Below are positions 3,293 through 15,848 of a stretch of 20,665 nucleotides of DNA, in pieces. The DNA is taken from IMG/VR virus record IMGVR_UViG_3300013117_000124, positions 1-20,665 of that record. One strand, 5' to 3'. The translations under genes and the position numbers were made by a program. Origin of the DNA: a virus. The notes beneath the pieces are model-generated. The model was not told the DNA's origin. It was given only the letters and a program-made list of their open reading frames with translations, and ran no database searches. Numbering within the stretch: the first letter of the stretch is position 1; each line of letters begins with the position of its first letter.

Positions 3293-3546
3293 CGACTACG
3301 AAGCGAGACCTAGCAACGATCTGTAGGAGCTACGCCGTGCTACACGGGCTCGAATTCCCGGCGGAGTTACCGCCGAACCCGAGCCCGAGATGCACAACTC
3401 GGCGTCGCTCGCGCAGATGGTACTTAACGCCGAGCGCGCCGCGGTCGAGAACGAGGGGTAGGGGCGACCCCGTATCCGGCGGGCGAGGATCGCCTCTCCC
3501 GTCGGATCAGGGGTCGAGTCGACCCGAGGAGCGAACCGAAACCTAA
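3289..3546 (+). CDS. Small protein, probably frame-disrupted
   Basis: The start ATG overlaps the TGA of the helicase (ATGA). The first 29 residues (MTTTKRDLATICRSYAVLHG and onward) look like a real protein. After about 3375 this frame turns into Arg/Ser/Pro-rich sequence running through the intergenic hairpins up to the next leader, which looks non-coding. The -1 frame, open from 3327, instead gives EPEPEMHNSASLAQMVLNAE and ends at TAG 3459-3461 with normal codon use. The intended product is therefore probably about 57 residues, joined across a frame change near 3372-3390. Candidate causes are a one-base indel in this genome or assembly, or a programmed -1 shift. The function is unknown. Confidence 0.5.
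   Translation: MTTTKRDLATICRSYAVLHGLEFPAELPPNPSPRCTTRRRSRRWYLTPSAPRSRTRGRGDPVSGGRGSPLPSDQGSSRPEERTET
3482..3525 (+). other. Intergenic hairpins before a leader
   Basis: Two tight inverted repeats lie between the small gene after the helicase and the gene at 3560. GGCGA (3482-3486) pairs with TCGCC (3490-3494), and GGGTCG (3511-3516) pairs with CGACCC (3520-3525), each with a three-base loop. The second abuts the duplicated ribosome-binding leader. There is no T-tract. Confidence 0.4.
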
Positions 3547-3559
3547 AGGAGCGACTACG
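3526..3559 (+). repeat. Duplicated ribosome-binding leader (second copy)
   Basis: GAGGAGCGAACCGAAACC is followed by TAAAGGAGCGACTACG, which ends at the ATG at 3560. It is an imperfect repeat of 861-896. Confidence 0.5.
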
Positions 3560-3724
3560 ATGAAACGACGAACCGTACAGCCGAGAAGCCGGAGAGCCCG
3601 GAAGGGGCGAACCCGATCGCCGTGGGCGAAGCGCGATAAACGCCCCTACTCCTATCCTTTCCCGACCGGTCCCGGAGCGTGGGTATTCCGAGCCTCGGCG
3701 GCGGCGGCGCGAGGAGAGAGCTAG
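3560..3724 (+). CDS. Small, strongly basic protein
   Basis: An ORF of 54 codons beginning MKRRTVQPRSRRARKGRTRS and ending ASAAAARGES before TAG at 3722-3724. About a third of its residues are Arg or Lys, concentrated in the first 30; the middle has aromatic and proline residues (PYSYPFPTGPGAW). It could bind nucleic acid, but no family is recognised. Support comes from the strong leader directly upstream and from its stop sharing a G with the GTG start of the next gene, the same TAGTG junction as at 1248-1252. It is short and of biased composition, so certainty is moderate. Confidence 0.55.
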   Translation: MKRRTVQPRSRRARKGRTRSPWAKRDKRPYSYPFPTGPGAWVFRASAAAARGES

Positions 3725-4026
3725 TGCCCGAGAAGTGGACGAAGGATCAACTCCGCGCGAAGAAGCTCGCGGATAGAGCGCTAAAGAAGCGCGTCGAGCT
3801 ATGCGACGTACTTAACCTACCGGCGACGAAGGCGTGGACGCGGCGCGAGCTACACGACGGGCTCGACTCTACCCTCGATAGTATCGAGAAGAAGGAGCGC
3901 CGAGCGCGGGAGCTATTCCCGAAGGTCGCCGAGTCTTTCGGGGTAACGGTCGGACGGATACCGGCGACCGATCTCGTCGGTATGGTCGAGTCGATCCTTA
4001 CCCCGCGCCGCTCGACGGACGAGTAG
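3724..4026 (+). CDS. Small helical protein of unknown function
   Basis: A 100-residue, charged, mostly helical protein with heptad-like stretches (about residues 5-25 and 45-75), and no membrane segment or Cys motif. I prefer the GTG at 3724 because it overlaps the TAG of the basic protein just upstream (TAGTG), which indicates translational coupling. The in-frame ATG at 3679 would need extensive overlap with that gene and has no ribosome-binding site. Stop TAG at 4024-4026. Residues such as WTKDQLRAKKLADRALKKRV hint at a nucleic-acid-binding or coiled-coil adaptor, without a family match. Confidence 0.65.
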   Translation: MPEKWTKDQLRAKKLADRALKKRVELCDVLNLPATKAWTRRELHDGLDSTLDSIEKKERRARELFPKVAESFGVTVGRIPATDLVGMVESILTPRRSTDE

Positions 4027-4032
4027 AAATAG

Positions 4033-4101
4033 CCGAGGGGCTAGAGAGGGAATGATCACCCGCCTCGAAAAGCGCGATTCGCTCCCGCGCCTGCCCCTCG
4101 G
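4033..4101 (+). other. Long-range inverted repeat in intergenic gap
   Basis: CCGAGGGGC (4033-4041) is perfectly complementary to GCCCCTCGG (4093-4101), closing a 51-base loop in the 104-base gap before the gene at 4131. A short T-run (CTTTTC, 4107-4112) follows eight to ten bases later, too far and too short for a convincing terminator. The Shine-Dalgarno AAGGAG (4119-4124) lies downstream. Confidence 0.4.
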
Positions 4102-4130
4102 TCCCACTTTTCGGAGCGAAGGAGAAGTAC

Positions 4131-4793
4131 ATGCAAGGCGTACCCGTACTCCGCGAGGGGAAGCGCGGATGTGGCTACCGGAAATCCGGCGGTCTCTATC
4201 TAATCGGCGGCGTTCTCGCCGCGCCCTGCGCGAAGCTACCGATCGAGCTTACCGTCTGCCCGGTCTGCCGCGCGGGCGTAAAGCAGACCCGAGGCTTTAC
4301 GTGGATCCGCCCCCGCGAGCTATTCGCCGATATCGACGGGACGCTTCCGCCCTGCCGCCTAGGCGACTGCGTCTCCTGCGCCGTCGGACCGAACGCTCCC
4401 GAGCGCGGCGGTCTACTCTGGATCGGGAAGGGCTTCTATAAGACGCCCGCCGACTTCGCCGCCGAAGCCGGTCGCGTCGGGATCTCGCGTCGCCTCTCGG
4501 GGCTACCGCGAGATCTCGTACTCGGCGAGACGTGGGTCTATCTCGCCCATCCCGAGGCGATCGTCGAGACGTGCCATTGTAGGCTCGTCGAGACGCTCGG
4601 CCAGCGAGAGTGCGCCGTATGCCGCGGTCGGGGGGCGGTCTATAAGAAGGGAGTCTTCGGAGCCTTTCGCCCGACGCGCGTCGAGAAGGTCGTCGACGAG
4701 ACGATATCCGACGAGGAGATCGAGGCGCTCTACAAGCGCGGGATCGACCCGGTAATCGTCGAGCCGATCGAGGACGCCGACGATGGCGAGTAG
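4131..4793 (+). CDS. Cys-rich phage protein of unknown function
   Basis: A 220-residue protein with several paired cysteines: CPVC (43-46), CRLGDCVSC (75-83), CHC (about 148-150) and CAVC (about 161-164), enough for two zinc sites. The middle stretch GLLWIGKGFYKTPADFAAEA followed by GISRRLSGLPRDLVLGETWV resembles a conserved motif of uncharacterised phage proteins; this is recall of a pattern, not a database match. The C-terminus is acidic. AAGGAG seven bases before the ATG fixes the start. Its end overlaps the start of the next Cys-rich gene by 11 bases. The substrate is unknown; zinc binding is inferred from the Cys pairs. Confidence 0.8.
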   Translation: MQGVPVLREGKRGCGYRKSGGLYLIGGVLAAPCAKLPIELTVCPVCRAGVKQTRGFTWIRPRELFADIDGTLPPCRLGDCVSCAVGPNAPERGGLLWIGKGFYKTPADFAAEAGRVGISRRLSGLPRDLVLGETWVYLAHPEAIVETCHCRLVETLGQRECAVCRGRGAVYKKGVFGAFRPTRVEKVVDETISDEEIEALYKRGIDPVIVEPIEDADDGE

Positions 4794-4995
4794 CGAAGGT
4801 CGGATACAGACGCGCCGGCTAGCCGCGGACGGAGGGGGGACGTTCGTCGAGCACCAGTGCTGGAGCTGCTACCGCTGGTTCTTCCCGAGCCGGAGAGACC
4901 AGCGGTACTGTACGCCGCGGTGCCGTCTCCGAGCGTGGCGCGCCCGCCGCCGCGTCGTCGAAGGGGAGCGAGAGACGAGATGCGCGACGCTCTAA
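4783..4995 (+). CDS. Small zinc-finger protein
   Basis: A 70-residue basic protein. CWSC (residues 26-29) and YCTPRCRLRAWRARRR (about 42-57) form the common C-x2-C ... YC-x3-C-R zinc finger that precedes an Arg-rich helix, as in many small phage and bacterial zinc-ribbon proteins likely to bind DNA or RNA. It begins inside the end of the 220-residue gene, and its own end overlaps the start of the next ORF by 16 bases, so it is part of a tight coupled run. A transcriptional or host-takeover role is possible but not shown. Confidence 0.75.
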   Translation: MASSEGRIQTRRLAADGGGTFVEHQCWSCYRWFFPSRRDQRYCTPRCRLRAWRARRRVVEGERETRCATL

Positions 4996-5159
4996 ACCTA
5001 CTCCCGCTACGCGCGTCGAAGCGCCGGATCGATCTACCGCGATGGCGGTACTTCGCCGGCCAAGCGCTACTCGCCGGAGCGATCGTACTCGTCGGCGGGA
5101 CGCTCGCGGGAGTCTTCGGCGCCGAGCTAATCCTCTTCGTCTGGGCGGTCTTTTTCTAA
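4980..5159 (+). CDS. Small membrane protein
   Basis: An ORF of 59 codons from the ATG at 4980 to TAA at 5157-5159. After a basic N-terminus (MRDALNLLPLRASKRRIDLP) come two hydrophobic stretches: residues about 25-42 (FAGQALLAGAIVLVGG) and about 44-59 (GVFGAELILFVWAVFF), which could form a membrane hairpin. It overlaps the end of the zinc-finger gene by 16 bases and shares TAATG with the next small membrane gene. An upstream ATG at 4857 is in frame but lies inside the zinc-finger gene without a ribosome-binding site. Possible roles such as superinfection exclusion or membrane recruitment are speculation. Confidence 0.6.
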   Translation: MRDALNLLPLRASKRRIDLPRWRYFAGQALLAGAIVLVGGTLAGVFGAELILFVWAVFF

Positions 5160-5293
5160 TGCGTCGCCGATTCGGAGAGCGTCGCCGCGGGCTAGACTCT
5201 ATCGATCGCGCGGGGTGGGGGGCGATCCTACTACTCGCTCTACTCCCCGCCGCGATCCTTATCTGCTCGCGACCGGAGCTACTAGTACCATGA
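5159..5293 (+). CDS. Very small membrane protein
   Basis: A 44-codon ORF starting at the ATG that overlaps the preceding TAA (TAATG). It has an Arg-rich N-terminus (MRRRFGERRRGLDS) followed by one hydrophobic segment (WGAILLLALLPAAILIC, residues about 20-36), consistent with a single-pass protein with the N-terminus inside by the positive-inside rule. It pairs with the two-segment protein just upstream. Codon use (CTA, CTC, GTA; no CTG) matches real genes. The function is unknown. Confidence 0.5.
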   Translation: MRRRFGERRRGLDSIDRAGWGAILLLALLPAAILICSRPELLVP

Positions 5294-5448
5294 ATGCCCG
5301 GACCGCAAGTCGCGGACGGGGCTCGTCGCGCTTTCGACGGAACGTCGGATTGAAAAGGGTGAAGCAAACGCGGCGAGCGCTCCCGGTAGCCACTGCACGT
5401 GGTAGATCGATAGGGGTGGCGGCTACCGGGAGCCTTTCTCCCGAACTA
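5294..5448 (+). ncRNA. Structured non-coding stretch before ERF (candidate RNA element)
   Basis: Three hairpins occur in a row. The first is nested: CCCG 5297-5300 with CGGG 5317-5320, enclosing CCGC 5303-5306 with GCGG 5312-5315. The second pairs CGACG 5335-5339 with CGTCG 5343-5347 (loop GAA). The third is a perfect 13-base stem, GCTCCCGGTAGCC 5379-5391 with GGCTACCGGGAGC 5421-5433. Words containing TG and CA, rare in neighbouring genes, are common here, which argues for a non-coding role. It could be a regulatory RNA, an mRNA leader or part of an origin. An ORF (5290-5469) also spans it, so coding is not excluded. Confidence 0.45.
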
Positions 5449-5449
5449 G

Positions 5450-5465
5450 AAAGGAGCGATACGAG
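5450..5465 (+). promoter_or_regulatory. Extended ribosome-binding leader of ERF
   Basis: AAAGGAGCGATACGAG directly precedes the ATG at 5466. It is a third variant of the AAGGAGCGAAACGA leader seen at 80 and 348. Confidence 0.55.
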
Positions 5466-6230
5466 ATGAGCCAATCCGAAAAGGTAGACCTACTCTCGAA
5501 GGCGCTAGTCGCTTTCCAGAGCGCGTGCTCGAACGTCGAGCCGAAGCAGACGGGGCAGCAGGGGAATCGGAAATTCAAGTACGCGGATCTCGCCGCGGTA
5601 CTCGACGAGATCAAGCCGAAGCTCGCCGACGCGAAGCTCGCGATCCTACAGATGCCGGTCTCCGACGATAGCGGGATCGGCGTCGTAACGAGGATCGTTC
5701 ACGAGTCGGGGCAGTATATCGAGCTACCGCCCCTACTACTCCCGGGAGGGCAGAGTACGCAGGACGGGGGGAAGGCGATTACGTACGCGCAGCGCTACGT
5801 GGTTCGCGCCGTCGCGCTTATCGCGACCGACGAGGATACGGAGGGACCGCAGGGCGGTAACGGCGGAAGCCGCGGGCGAGGACGTAGTCGAGCTCAGGGC
5901 CCCAGTAGCGGAGACGCTCCGTCGCCCTCCGGCGACCCGCCGCCCGCCGATCCTCCGCCGAGCGACCCGCCGGCTTCGACGGGGAGCGCGGAAGTCGGAG
6001 CCTTCGATAAGAAGCTCGGCTTCGGAAGGCACGCCGACCTTACGTGGCGCCAGCTCTGCGAGGGCTCGATCGGAGGCGAGCGACATACGTACGTCGGACA
6101 CATGGTCGGGTACCTGAACCCCGAGGAGAGCGAGGAGACGAAGCTAATGCACGAGCGCTTTATGAAGTGCCTCCGAATCTACGGGGGGAAGCAGCGCGAG
6201 AAGGAAGACGCGGACGGGGAGGGGTTCTAA
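5466..6230 (+). CDS. erf: ERF-family single-strand annealing protein with extra C-terminal domain
   Basis: A 254-residue recombination protein. Residues 1-125 match the ERF core of P22-type annealing proteins: KFKYADLAAVLDEIKPKL (36-53), GVVTRIVHESGQYIE (72-86) and AITYAQRYVVRA (104-115). ERF proteins form rings on single-stranded DNA and drive strand annealing, useful for circularisation and repair of phage DNA. Residues 126-175 are a disordered Gly/Arg then Pro/Asp/Ser linker. Residues about 180-245 (LGFGRHADLTWRQLCE onward) look like a small DUF3820-like domain, an assignment I hold less firmly. A strong leader precedes the ATG. Its TAA shares bases with the ATG of the Gp157-like gene, a pairing common in phages. 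Confidence 0.9.
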   Translation: MSQSEKVDLLSKALVAFQSACSNVEPKQTGQQGNRKFKYADLAAVLDEIKPKLADAKLAILQMPVSDDSGIGVVTRIVHESGQYIELPPLLLPGGQSTQDGGKAITYAQRYVVRAVALIATDEDTEGPQGGNGGSRGRGRSRAQGPSSGDAPSPSGDPPPADPPPSDPPASTGSAEVGAFDKKLGFGRHADLTWRQLCEGSIGGERHTYVGHMVGYLNPEESEETKLMHERFMKCLRIYGGKQREKEDADGEGF

Positions 6231-6775
6231 TGGGACGGGGACCGACGCTCTACGAACTAGACGAGGCGCTAAAGGAAGCGATCGAGAACCACGTCGATAA
6301 GGAGACGGGCGAGATATCCGAAGACGGTCTCCGGGCGCTCGACGCCGTCGAGATGGCGCTCGACGAGAAGGCGCTACGCGTCGCTCGCTATATCCTCGGT
6401 CTCGGGATCGAGGCGGAGGGGCTAAAGGCGCAGGCGCAGGCGATCGAGAAGCACGCTACCGGGATACGGCGGAGGATGCAGGCGAAGACGAACGAAGCCG
6501 ACCGTATGAAGGAGTACCTCTCCGATCACCTCGAAGACGGGAAGACGCTCTCCGACGACTTCGTCCGAATCTCCTGGGGTACCGCGTCGGGGCTTAACGT
6601 CCTAACGAAGCCCGAGAATCTCCCCGAGTGGGCCCAGACCGTCGCGCTCCCGTCGGCGAATAAGAAGGCACTCGGCGACGCGCTCCGAGACGAGAGCGAC
6701 GAGGGGAAGGAGAAGAAGGCGGAGGCGAAGAAGCACGCCGAGCTTACGAAGAGGCGATACGTAAAGGTCTCGTAG
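6230..6775 (+). CDS. Siphovirus Gp157-like protein
   Basis: A 181-residue protein matching the Siphovirus Gp157 pattern. It has an N-terminal LYELDEALKEAIENHVDKET, then DGLRALDAVEMALDEKA, then a long coiled coil (about 60-105, with the typical region of IEKHATGIRRRMQAKTNEAD before YLSDHL), then a beta-rich part with FVRISWGTASGLNVL and a Lys-rich end. Some members of the family are linked to phage resistance in streptococci, and it usually sits next to annealing or SSB genes, as here. The ATG at 6230 overlaps the TAA of ERF (TAATG), so longer upstream readings are rejected. Stop TAG. Confidence 0.9.
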   Translation: MGRGPTLYELDEALKEAIENHVDKETGEISEDGLRALDAVEMALDEKALRVARYILGLGIEAEGLKAQAQAIEKHATGIRRRMQAKTNEADRMKEYLSDHLEDGKTLSDDFVRISWGTASGLNVLTKPENLPEWAQTVALPSANKKALGDALRDESDEGKEKKAEAKKHAELTKRRYVKVS

Positions 6776-11868: not shown

Positions 11869-12849
11869 TTAGTTTGCGTCGGCCCAGGTACCGCTCTCGA
11901 TCGCGCCCCACTGTGTTTCAGTAAGCCCGAAGAGATGTACTATCGAACCGACGGTAGAGCTACTAATCCGATCGCCTCCCGTATCGGTGAGCCGAAGAAT
12001 CTGCTCGGTTCCGTTGGGATCGATTAGGACGGTCTGATTCGCGACGACCGCGAAAAAAATATGCATCCCCGTAATCACATCCGGGAGCGTAAACGTAACC
12101 GCGCCAGTCGCCCCCTCGTTAGTCATAACCGTACCTGCAGTCTCCATCCATCCGTAGCCGCTTCCGATTACGTCGTCGGCGGTTCTATCGAGGGTCTTGT
12201 GCATGAAAGTGTTCGGACGATTCGTCCACGTAGAGTTCCCGAAGATCGGCTCGAAGTAGCCGTCGGCAGCCAGTCCCCAGAGCCCATCATCGGAGAGATC
12301 GTGAAACCAGAAGTCTAGATCATCATGAAACATAAGCACCGAGTTTGGTTCTTCGGATAAACAGCTTAATGGTGTATCTGCGCAGTCCGCAATAGCTCCG
12401 AGCCGTACTAGATCACCAACGCCATATTTCCCATCCTCAGCTACGAACGTTACCGTACCCGCGAAGTTCTCCGAGGTATCGAAGATAAAGTTGGTCCCAG
12501 AGACGTACATACGCAATGGATAGGCGAAATCGTTGTCGTCGAAGCCGTGCGCGATAATTCCCCACGTACAGCCCTCCGCGGCACCGTCCGCATCGACGCC
12601 TCTCGCGTAGTAGTTCTCTGCGCAGTTCGCCGGATTGGTTTTCATGTCCGTCCAATCCTGGACGAGATCGCCGTCGTCGACCGCTCCCTGGAGCGTCTTT
12701 ACTCCGGTATCGACGGTAATCGCGATCTTCTCCGGCTGCGTACAGGCGGCGGGCGGCGGGAAGACCGTATCGTCTTCGCAGCCGCTTCCGAAGGAAGGCA
12801 ACGCGAGGAAGAATACGAAGAGAATCGGGAGGAAGAAGAGAAGGCGCAT
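11869..12849 (-). CDS. Exported or surface protein with tail-fibre-like C-terminus
   Basis: A 326-residue protein. MRLLFFLPILFVFFLALPSF is a strong signal sequence; GSGC follows, a weak lipobox. The mature part is acidic, beta-rich and Cys-containing. The C-terminal 60 residues (VLIDPNGTEQILRLTDTGGD, then SIVHLFGLTETQWGAIESGT) follow a beta-structured pattern common at the ends of phage fibre or surface proteins. The start at 12849 is chosen because it overlaps the stop of the tail-tip gene (TAATG); a longer reading from 12921 would run into that gene. Codon use differs from neighbours: GCA, ACA, CCA and GTG are frequent in the middle, a sign of recent transfer. A virion protein with a signal sequence would be odd. 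Confidence 0.7.
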   Translation of the reverse strand: MRLLFFLPILFVFFLALPSFGSGCEDDTVFPPPAACTQPEKIAITVDTGVKTLQGAVDDGDLVQDWTDMKTNPANCAENYYARGVDADGAAEGCTWGIIAHGFDDNDFAYPLRMYVSGTNFIFDTSENFAGTVTFVAEDGKYGVGDLVRLGAIADCADTPLSCLSEEPNSVLMFHDDLDFWFHDLSDDGLWGLAADGYFEPIFGNSTWTNRPNTFMHKTLDRTADDVIGSGYGWMETAGTVMTNEGATGAVTFTLPDVITGMHIFFAVVANQTVLIDPNGTEQILRLTDTGGDRISSSTVGSIVHLFGLTETQWGAIESGTWADAN

Positions 12850-15848
12850 TAGCTTACCTCCGTAACTTCGAGTCTCGCCGTCGGATCTCCCGGCGTTCGG
12901 AAGACGGCGAGGACAAGACACTTAATCTGCCACCCCGGACCGACCTGCTCCTCCCACTTCGGGAATACGTCGACGGTATCGCCGGGATCGAGATCGAAGC
13001 AGAAGTAGACGGGTACCTCTAGGACGAAGCTACTCTTTAGCCAGTAGTAACGGGCGAAGTGCCCGAGTACGCTCTCCGCCGTCGGCTCGTCGTTAATCGT
13101 TAGGAAGAAGAAGGGCGGATGGTCTATCCGACCGTAGCGATCCTCGCGAGTCGTAAACGTCGCGGTACCGATACCCGTATCGTCTACGTCGGGATCGCCG
13201 CGCGAGACTTCCGAGAAGGCGATCTCGGAGGTATCGAGGAACGGGTTCCAGTCCCAGAAGCTACGGAAGCGCGTCCCTAGCTTCTTTAGCTCGGGTAGGC
13301 TCTCCGAGATCGAGAAGAAGCGGTCGATCTCCCGTACGACCGCGGGGAAGACGCCAGAGCTATTCGGCGTACTAAGCTTTAGCTGCGTACTACTCGCCCC
13401 CTCGACGCGGACGATCCCGCAGCGCGCCTCGTAGGCTATCCGTCCGATAATCTCGTCGAAGCTCGCTCCGAGCCCGGTCGCGATAAGCGCGTGCTTATTC
13501 GTCCCGAGATTCGTTAGGGCTAGATCGAAGGTCGTATCGTCGATATAGCCGTAGCCGAGACCGCAGTAGTCCGCGGCGAAGTGGCGAATAATATCCGGCA
13601 TCTTCTCGATTAGGGAGAAGGGCGCTCCGTCGTAGTTCGCGTTCGTCGCGCTCGCGACGCGGAGATCGTCGATCGAGAGAGAAGCCGGTCCGGTAGAGCG
13701 AACGACTTCGAGCCCGATACAGTCGCAGTCGCTTACGTCGGGTGTACCGAACCGGACGCCTACCTGCTGGAAGTCGACCCACTCGTCTTCGATTAGTACG
13801 TCGGCGGGGATCTCTAGCTCGATTCGATTCGCGGGGACCGTCGTACCGGAGCCGCTATCGGCCATCCAGAGTCGAGCGGATACGATATTCGCGACGTTAT
13901 CCCCTCTTACTCGAAGGCGATAGACATCGTCCTGAGCTTGGAGATCAACTCCCGTACCGCCTCCGGGCGAGAGGTACTGCATAACGGCGGTCGCGCCGAT
14001 CGTACCGCACGTCTGGAAGTACGAGCCTTCCGGCGGATCGGTACCGTCGCGAATCTGGATACAGTTCGAGACGTTCCAGCTACCGCTACCGCCTTCCTCG
14101 AAGCCGTACGTCGTCGACGGGAAGAGGTATGGAACGAAGGCGCCCTCGATATCGGCAAAGAATTCGAGACCGTAGCCCGTCGCCGCGGCTTCGATCTCGG
14201 TATCGATCTCGCGGGTTACCGCTCCGCCGGGATTCGTCTCGGCTTCGACGCGCCAGGTATTAATCGTCCAGACTTCATCGACGGCGCCCGAGGGCTGTAG
14301 AATTACTTCCTCGTTAAGCGTATCGAGATCTTCGAGCGTCTTGTTAGTCGGGTGCATCCATCGCGTATAGCCCGAATACGTACCGTTCCCGTTCGCGGTA
14401 AGAAGGATCGGATCGCCGAAGCACCCGAGGAGAGTCATACCCTTAAAGCGAAGCTTCGCGGGACCGCCGGTCCACCCGCTAACCGTCGCCTGAAGGTAGA
14501 CTCGGAATCGGAGGATCGTATCCGTATTGTAGACTCCCTGGTTGAATTTCCCTCGGAGCTGGGTACAATCCGAGCCCGCCGTCGAAGTCCAGACGGGATT
14601 CGCGACGGTTCCCGTCCACTCTCCGTAGCCTACTCCGCTCGTGCCACCTTCCTCGGAAGTCGAGAACGGAGAAGCCGTCGGGGTTCCCGGCGTACCGGCG
14701 CCGGTATCGAATTCCGGCTGTACCGTTACGCGAGCGCTCGCCCGAGCTTCTAAGAGCCACTCCTTAAAGTCGTCGCCGTCGATCGTCGTCGTCGAGAATT
14801 CGCTACCCGCCGGGAAGCCGAAGAGCGGTCCGCGCTGGTCCCCTCGACGGTAAAGATACGAATTCGTAAAGCGGACTAGCTCTCCGTTAAACGGGTTACG
14901 GACGTAGAGAGCCTTAACGTCCTTAATCCAGTGCCCCGCGTTCCCGAGTACGATCTCGTCCGTGAGCTCAAGGATCTGGTCGCCAGCCGTATGAATAGCC
15001 GGCGCCGAATCGTCGTGGCCGCGAGCGTTAATCGTAACCGTATGAATATCGTAGTCGGAGCCGCTACACTCGATTATTTCGCTACCGACGATTAGGTCGA
15101 AGGTACTCCCGGTCGGGAATCCCGAGGCGTCCGTAACGAGAACCTGCCCGGTCTGGTCCGCCGTTATCGTCTCCGCGAGCGTCGTATTCCATCCGATCTT
15201 TAGGTTTCGGAGCGGTACCTTACTCATCGCTCCGTAGACGATCGGTAGCTCGGCGCCGAAGTCTCGCGGGTCGACGTTAGAAGAATCGAGGCACTCGATC
15301 TTCGGAACCCTCGGCTCCTCGGACGCGAACCGTAGACGAAACGAGGACTCGGTAGCGGCTTCGGCTTTCTCATACTTCCCTCGGAAGAGAACCGTATGCT
15401 CGGTTCCGGGGAGATCGCGCATATCCCACCAGCTCGAAGCCGCGTCGACTAGCTTCCGTCCCGGCGGAACGAGAAGCTCGGAGAGAACTAGCTCGGCGTT
15501 CGCTAGTCGACGCTGCCGTAGCTCGCGCCATCGCCACTTGTTCGTAACGATATCTAGCTCGTTCGTAAGAGTAAGGTCGACGATCGCGCGAGAAGAGAAG
15601 CCTTCGGGCTCGAAAGGGAAGGGCATCGTCGGACCGGGTACGCTAATCGCTTGGATACATCCAACGAATTGCTGGTCCCCTCCGCCGTCGAGATCGTAAA
15701 GGACGGAGTGCGGGTAGCTCCAGTAGTAGGTCTTGTTAACGGTACCGGCGACGGGGTCCGTATAGATCGTTAGCTTCGCGAGGATTACGGGAGCGATCGT
15801 ACCGTATTCCATTAGCGCTTGCTGCGACGCGGCGAGCGGCTTCGTCAT
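12849..15848 (-). CDS. Large tail-tip / baseplate-hub protein
   Basis: A 999-residue structural protein. Residues 1-200 (TIYTDPVAGTVNKTYYWSYP near the start) form the tail-proximal part. Residues about 222-295 are an inserted beta domain with the recurring pattern DASGFPTGSTFDLIVGSEII and a following RGHDDSAPAIHTAGD. Residues about 400-550 are another beta-rich insert. Residues about 582-735 resemble a carbohydrate-binding beta-sandwich (SGSWNVSNCIQIRDG; LSIDDLRVAS at the end). Residues about 745-999 look like a hub domain ending in a beta part (DLDPGDTVDVFPKWEE). It follows the 268-residue tail gene with TAATG overlap. Likely role: tail-tip assembly and host recognition. Confidence 0.8.
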   Translation of the reverse strand: MTKPLAASQQALMEYGTIAPVILAKLTIYTDPVAGTVNKTYYWSYPHSVLYDLDGGGDQQFVGCIQAISVPGPTMPFPFEPEGFSSRAIVDLTLTNELDIVTNKWRWRELRQRRLANAELVLSELLVPPGRKLVDAASSWWDMRDLPGTEHTVLFRGKYEKAEAATESSFRLRFASEEPRVPKIECLDSSNVDPRDFGAELPIVYGAMSKVPLRNLKIGWNTTLAETITADQTGQVLVTDASGFPTGSTFDLIVGSEIIECSGSDYDIHTVTINARGHDDSAPAIHTAGDQILELTDEIVLGNAGHWIKDVKALYVRNPFNGELVRFTNSYLYRRGDQRGPLFGFPAGSEFSTTTIDGDDFKEWLLEARASARVTVQPEFDTGAGTPGTPTASPFSTSEEGGTSGVGYGEWTGTVANPVWTSTAGSDCTQLRGKFNQGVYNTDTILRFRVYLQATVSGWTGGPAKLRFKGMTLLGCFGDPILLTANGNGTYSGYTRWMHPTNKTLEDLDTLNEEVILQPSGAVDEVWTINTWRVEAETNPGGAVTREIDTEIEAAATGYGLEFFADIEGAFVPYLFPSTTYGFEEGGSGSWNVSNCIQIRDGTDPPEGSYFQTCGTIGATAVMQYLSPGGGTGVDLQAQDDVYRLRVRGDNVANIVSARLWMADSGSGTTVPANRIELEIPADVLIEDEWVDFQQVGVRFGTPDVSDCDCIGLEVVRSTGPASLSIDDLRVASATNANYDGAPFSLIEKMPDIIRHFAADYCGLGYGYIDDTTFDLALTNLGTNKHALIATGLGASFDEIIGRIAYEARCGIVRVEGASSTQLKLSTPNSSGVFPAVVREIDRFFSISESLPELKKLGTRFRSFWDWNPFLDTSEIAFSEVSRGDPDVDDTGIGTATFTTREDRYGRIDHPPFFFLTINDEPTAESVLGHFARYYWLKSSFVLEVPVYFCFDLDPGDTVDVFPKWEEQVGPGWQIKCLVLAVFRTPGDPTARLEVTEVS

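Follow-up and report, generated by a model that had tools for sequence, protein, structure and literature searches.

A predicted folded segment between the small membrane genes and the ERF gene of an unclassified virus, a candidate for punctuation of its early mRNA

The RNase III sites of phage T7 are intercistronic hairpins at which early phage mRNAs are processed. A segment of comparable placement lies at 5294-5465 in the window studied here, the complete 20,665-base stretch of an unclassified virus contig, and it resembles the T7-type hairpins in that its predicted stems are long and irregular and lie between genes that form a single early transcription unit. A second point of reference is the int-alpA RNA (RF02996), since the same virus carries a copy of it 1.2 kb upstream, at 4034-4114 (+) within the gap 4027-4130 (44.5 bits, cut-off 35.8); neither an integrase nor an alpA gene accompanies it among the genes scanned in the window. 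Only 4034-4114 matches this family, whereas 5294-5465 fails the curated cut-off, and scored against all Rfam families it gave nothing above a gathering cut-off. Intrinsic terminators and attenuators share with the segment a GC-rich stem followed directly by CTTTCT, but here the stem encloses a 29-nt loop spacer and the tail has only four T, and promoter and terminator scans called no site in 5294-5465. In kind, the structure is ordinary for phage operons.

The early genes, including those for an SNF2-type helicase, ERF, a Gp157/Gam-like protein and a DUF5131 protein, occupy the + strand in the left half of the window, and the tail genes the - strand in the right half. The spacer (5294-5465, 172 nt) separates small membrane genes from ERF. 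Its upstream neighbor is a 45-codon ORF with a hydrophobic core (5159-5293, +, TGA at 5291-5293), and downstream is the gene for an ERF-family single-strand annealing protein of 254 aa (5466-6230, +; PF04404, E 1.2e-13; phrog_2324, E 2.3e-26), followed by its Gp157/Gam-like partner (6230-6775, +; PF05565, E 5.8e-14; phrog_253). In other viruses the ERF gene mostly overlaps or nearly touches the gene before it, so that ERF genes do not as a rule come with a gap such as the 172 nt seen here. The ERF start codon and its ribosome site, AGAAAGGAG, lie at 5448-5469 (+), and the same GGAGCGA-type site is found again before other genes of the virus.

A first-pass annotation had described three consecutive hairpins in this region, and both the sequence and RNA folding place all three where it did (5297-5320, 5335-5347 and 5379-5391 with 5421-5433). 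All helices are given for the + strand. The first, P1, is a nested hairpin (5297-5320) in which CCCG (5297-5300) pairs with CGGG (5317-5320), and CCGC (5303-5306) with GCGG (5312-5315). The GAA-loop hairpin, P3, has the core CGACG (5335-5339) and CGTCG (5343-5347), extended to 5333-5339/5343-5349 with one G-U pair. P4 is a stem of 13 perfect pairs (5379-5391/5421-5433), extended inward by 4 bp within its 29-nt spacer. Folding added two helices that had been missed: P2 (5321-5330/5369-5378), of 10 bp with one U-G pair, which surrounds P3 and an unpaired, purine-rich stretch of 19 nt (5350-5368), and P5 (5434-5453), of 6 bp, formed by CUUUCU (5434-5439) and AGAAAG (5448-5453). In the predicted fold P1, P2, P4 and P5 abut, with no unpaired bases between them.

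When folded against shuffled controls, a check the annotation had proposed, the region 5290-5469 reached -77.9 kcal/mol (z -3.0) and was better than all 200 shuffles. The opposite strand also folds well (z -3.8), so folding is uninformative about the strand; the direction of the neighboring genes suggests that the + strand is the folded one. When the whole window was scanned in 120-nt steps of sequence on both strands (1028 combinations of position and strand, with z averaging -0.09 and an sd of 1.15), the lowest value on each strand fell at 5321-5440, -4.98 on the - strand and -4.83 on the + strand, and the structure is a genuine fold outlier. For the entire gap, a z of -3.0 is not extreme, since among 101 coding windows matched to it in length 2% have values of -3 or below (the lowest at -5.1). 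The 13-bp stem taken alone is weak evidence, because perfect 13-bp inverted repeats with spacers of up to 60 occur at three places in the window (mean in shuffled windows 0.09), two of them inside genes. Of perfect stems of at least 10 bp with spacers up to 35, two of four are in non-coding DNA, which makes up 6% of the total. The stem by itself says little, and the argument depends on the complete fold being found in a gap with weak coding signal.

An open frame of 59 codons (5290-5469, +) does span the gap, with ATGA overlaps at both ends as had been annotated, and a GGAG at 5275-5278 stands 12-15 bases before its ATG. It is probably not a gene. Its codon score was -0.40 with one choice of genes and -0.32 in a leave-one-out calculation, clearly below the accepted genes read in frame, which score 0.02 to 0.30 by leave-one-out (the lowest, at 0.022, is the ORF at 5159-5293); in the first calculation the gene at 4980-5159 scores 0.264. 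Codons ending in TG or CA, which the virus hardly uses, make up 5 of 60 in this frame, and without them the leave-one-out score is still -0.23. With codon usage outside the range of the virus's own genes, the frame is probably non-coding. The alternative raised at the outset, that a short basic peptide is made from 5290-5469, coupled through ATGA to both neighbors, with the folding incidental or acting through the passage of ribosomes, is thus disfavored, and we consider it unlikely. A translated leader is conceivable, given the ATGA at either end and the fair ribosome site at GGAG 5275, but the codon score lies under that of every accepted in-frame gene, the frame has no Pfam match and no tblastn match in phages, and the predicted peptide is arginine-rich, resembling out-of-frame ORFs of a G+C-rich genome.

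What was computed for 5294-5465 is a gap that is predicted to fold strongly and in which coding signal is weak, and the earlier proposal of a regulatory RNA, processed leader or origin holds as far as a structured, probably non-coding RNA before ERF is concerned. We see about an even chance that the segment is a non-coding, folded intercistronic element that serves as cis-acting punctuation of an early polycistronic mRNA; that it works as a cis-acting RNA at all is probable. On the transcript its place would be between ERF-Gp157 and the small membrane genes that precede them, where a structure centered on P4 would most likely direct processing, affect stability or slow transcription, and the ERF ribosome site would follow immediately downstream. 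An origin is without support, as repeat searches found no iterons and the stretch is 63% G+C. More generally, a site acting as DNA, whether replication origin, recombination site or binding palindrome, would suit the perfect inverted repeat and the location before recombination genes, but is highly improbable given that iteron-type repeats and an A+T-rich stretch are missing there and that tyrosine recombinase sites have short spacers, unlike the 29 bp found here. The compact multi-helix fold, with its abutting helices and purine-rich unpaired stretch, would also suit a small RNA that stands alone, or a structured RNA class not yet described, either of them comparable to the int-alpA RNA, and a neighboring gap does hold a curated small RNA family. 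This reading is quite unlikely: the only Rfam match at a loose threshold, to a microRNA, fell outside the gap and is attributed to chance, and neither a second copy nor a relative was found. We see a slender chance that the segment is a compact structured RNA of a type not described before, with a regulatory or catalytic role, that belongs to an isolated phage lineage and controls expression of the recombinase.

A translational switch for ERF was also considered. P5 reaches into the ERF ribosome site (AAGGAG, 5451-5456) and covers its upstream half, so that P4, by keeping its 3' strand, would leave P5 to hide the site, while opening of P4 would allow an alternative hairpin, CGGGAG-CCUUU-CUCCCG (5427-5443), to form and release it. 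Single folds looked promising, in that forcing the 5' strand of P4 open did produce the alternative hairpin. The predicted accessibility of the site was 0.33, and 5% of shuffled leaders were at or below this value. Masking 5379-5391 did not raise the mean accessibility, however (0.335 versus 0.328), and the idea failed the shuffle test, since 23% of shuffled leaders gain as much from some mask; several other genes of the virus have ribosome sites hidden to the same degree. With hiding that is borderline and a gain from opening P4 that is nothing unusual, the switch is not claimed, and we regard it as doubtful.

Punctuation of the early mRNA, the preferred reading, can be set beside other gaps of the virus. 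One of these, 2885-2981, lies in a second record of the same virus, L033 (12,253 bases), of which 7,720 bases overlap with the window at 99.97% identity. Three of seven gaps reach z of -3 or below, compared with 2% of coding windows: 3293-3726 (-3.4), 5294-5465 (-3.0) and 2885-2981 of L033 (-4.1). The int-alpA gap 4027-4130 stands at -1.9 and three others are unremarkable. With several folded gaps in one virus, it is likelier that the spacer belongs to a set that punctuates operons than that it is a unique regulator, and we infer that the folded gaps may serve as such punctuation; two gaps show no excess folding, and the notion of a set draws on a small number of gaps. The 434-nt gap 3293-3726 (+) combines strong folding (z -3.4 to -4.9, depending on the stretch chosen) with weak coding signal. 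The intergenic hairpin at 2885-2981 of L033 is predicted to have a 16-bp stem and a UUCG loop (z -4.1 to -4.4), and sits after the gene that follows the capsid protein gene. If the structures are real, a phage with little space between its genes would be keeping what gaps it has for RNA structure, and the spacer would be a candidate control point for the ERF recombinase.

With protein, DNA, pattern and RNA-model queries, no relative of the spacer was found in 2.9 million viral contigs or 50,697 phage records, nor in 84,980 genomes searched through ERF only, where ERF had a single match (33%). ERF alone as a query returned no relatives, a degenerate ERF peptide search none, and an ERF alignment 80 distant matches. 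Searches with the helicase gave 31 distant matches, and those with the tail protein one fragment of the same virus; the gene at 4131 gave 16 distant matches, none with ERF or the spacer. The capsid protein of L033 is 100% identical in records L050 and L051 and 29-39% identical in the others. An RNA model of the spacer, R1, had no match in 79 viral loci from two protein searches and further loci, or in 30 whole viral records; as it consists of one sequence given twice, its sensitivity is low and it would miss remote relatives. A 16-base query from the unpaired part hit 66 loci, all judged by their flanking sequence to be chance. Absence from the searched collections is not proof of absence elsewhere, and the spacer will count as an orphan for as long as no relative has been sequenced.

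The composition of the spacer, described earlier as rich in TG and CA words relative to the coding DNA around it, does exceed coding DNA, with 6 TG and 4 CA in 172 bases; the difference is only modest when its ratios to expectation (0.64 and 0.40) are compared with those found outside the listed genes (0.34 and 0.36). Across the window, L033 and L051, TG/CA is depleted to 0.30 of expectation (other dinucleotide ratios are CG 1.59, TA 1.32 and GA 1.53), and in 207 comparison loci the TG/CA ratio averages 1.11 (sd 0.10, minimum 0.83). Where choice is free the avoidance is nearly complete, with ratios of 0.16 (TG) and 0.06 (CA) at codon positions 2-3, and 0.11 and 0.08 at codon boundaries; GTG is used 4 times against 102 for GTA, and CTG 4 times against 154 for CTA. 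The avoidance extends outside the listed genes, and looks like a mutational bias, modification or avoidance at the DNA level. A full-text literature search found no paper on a phage with such depletion, which is a more unusual property of the contig than the folded spacer. The gene at 11869-12921 (-) is nearer normal, with 15 of 351 codons ending in TG or CA and dinucleotide ratios of 0.53 and 0.70, and was possibly acquired recently.
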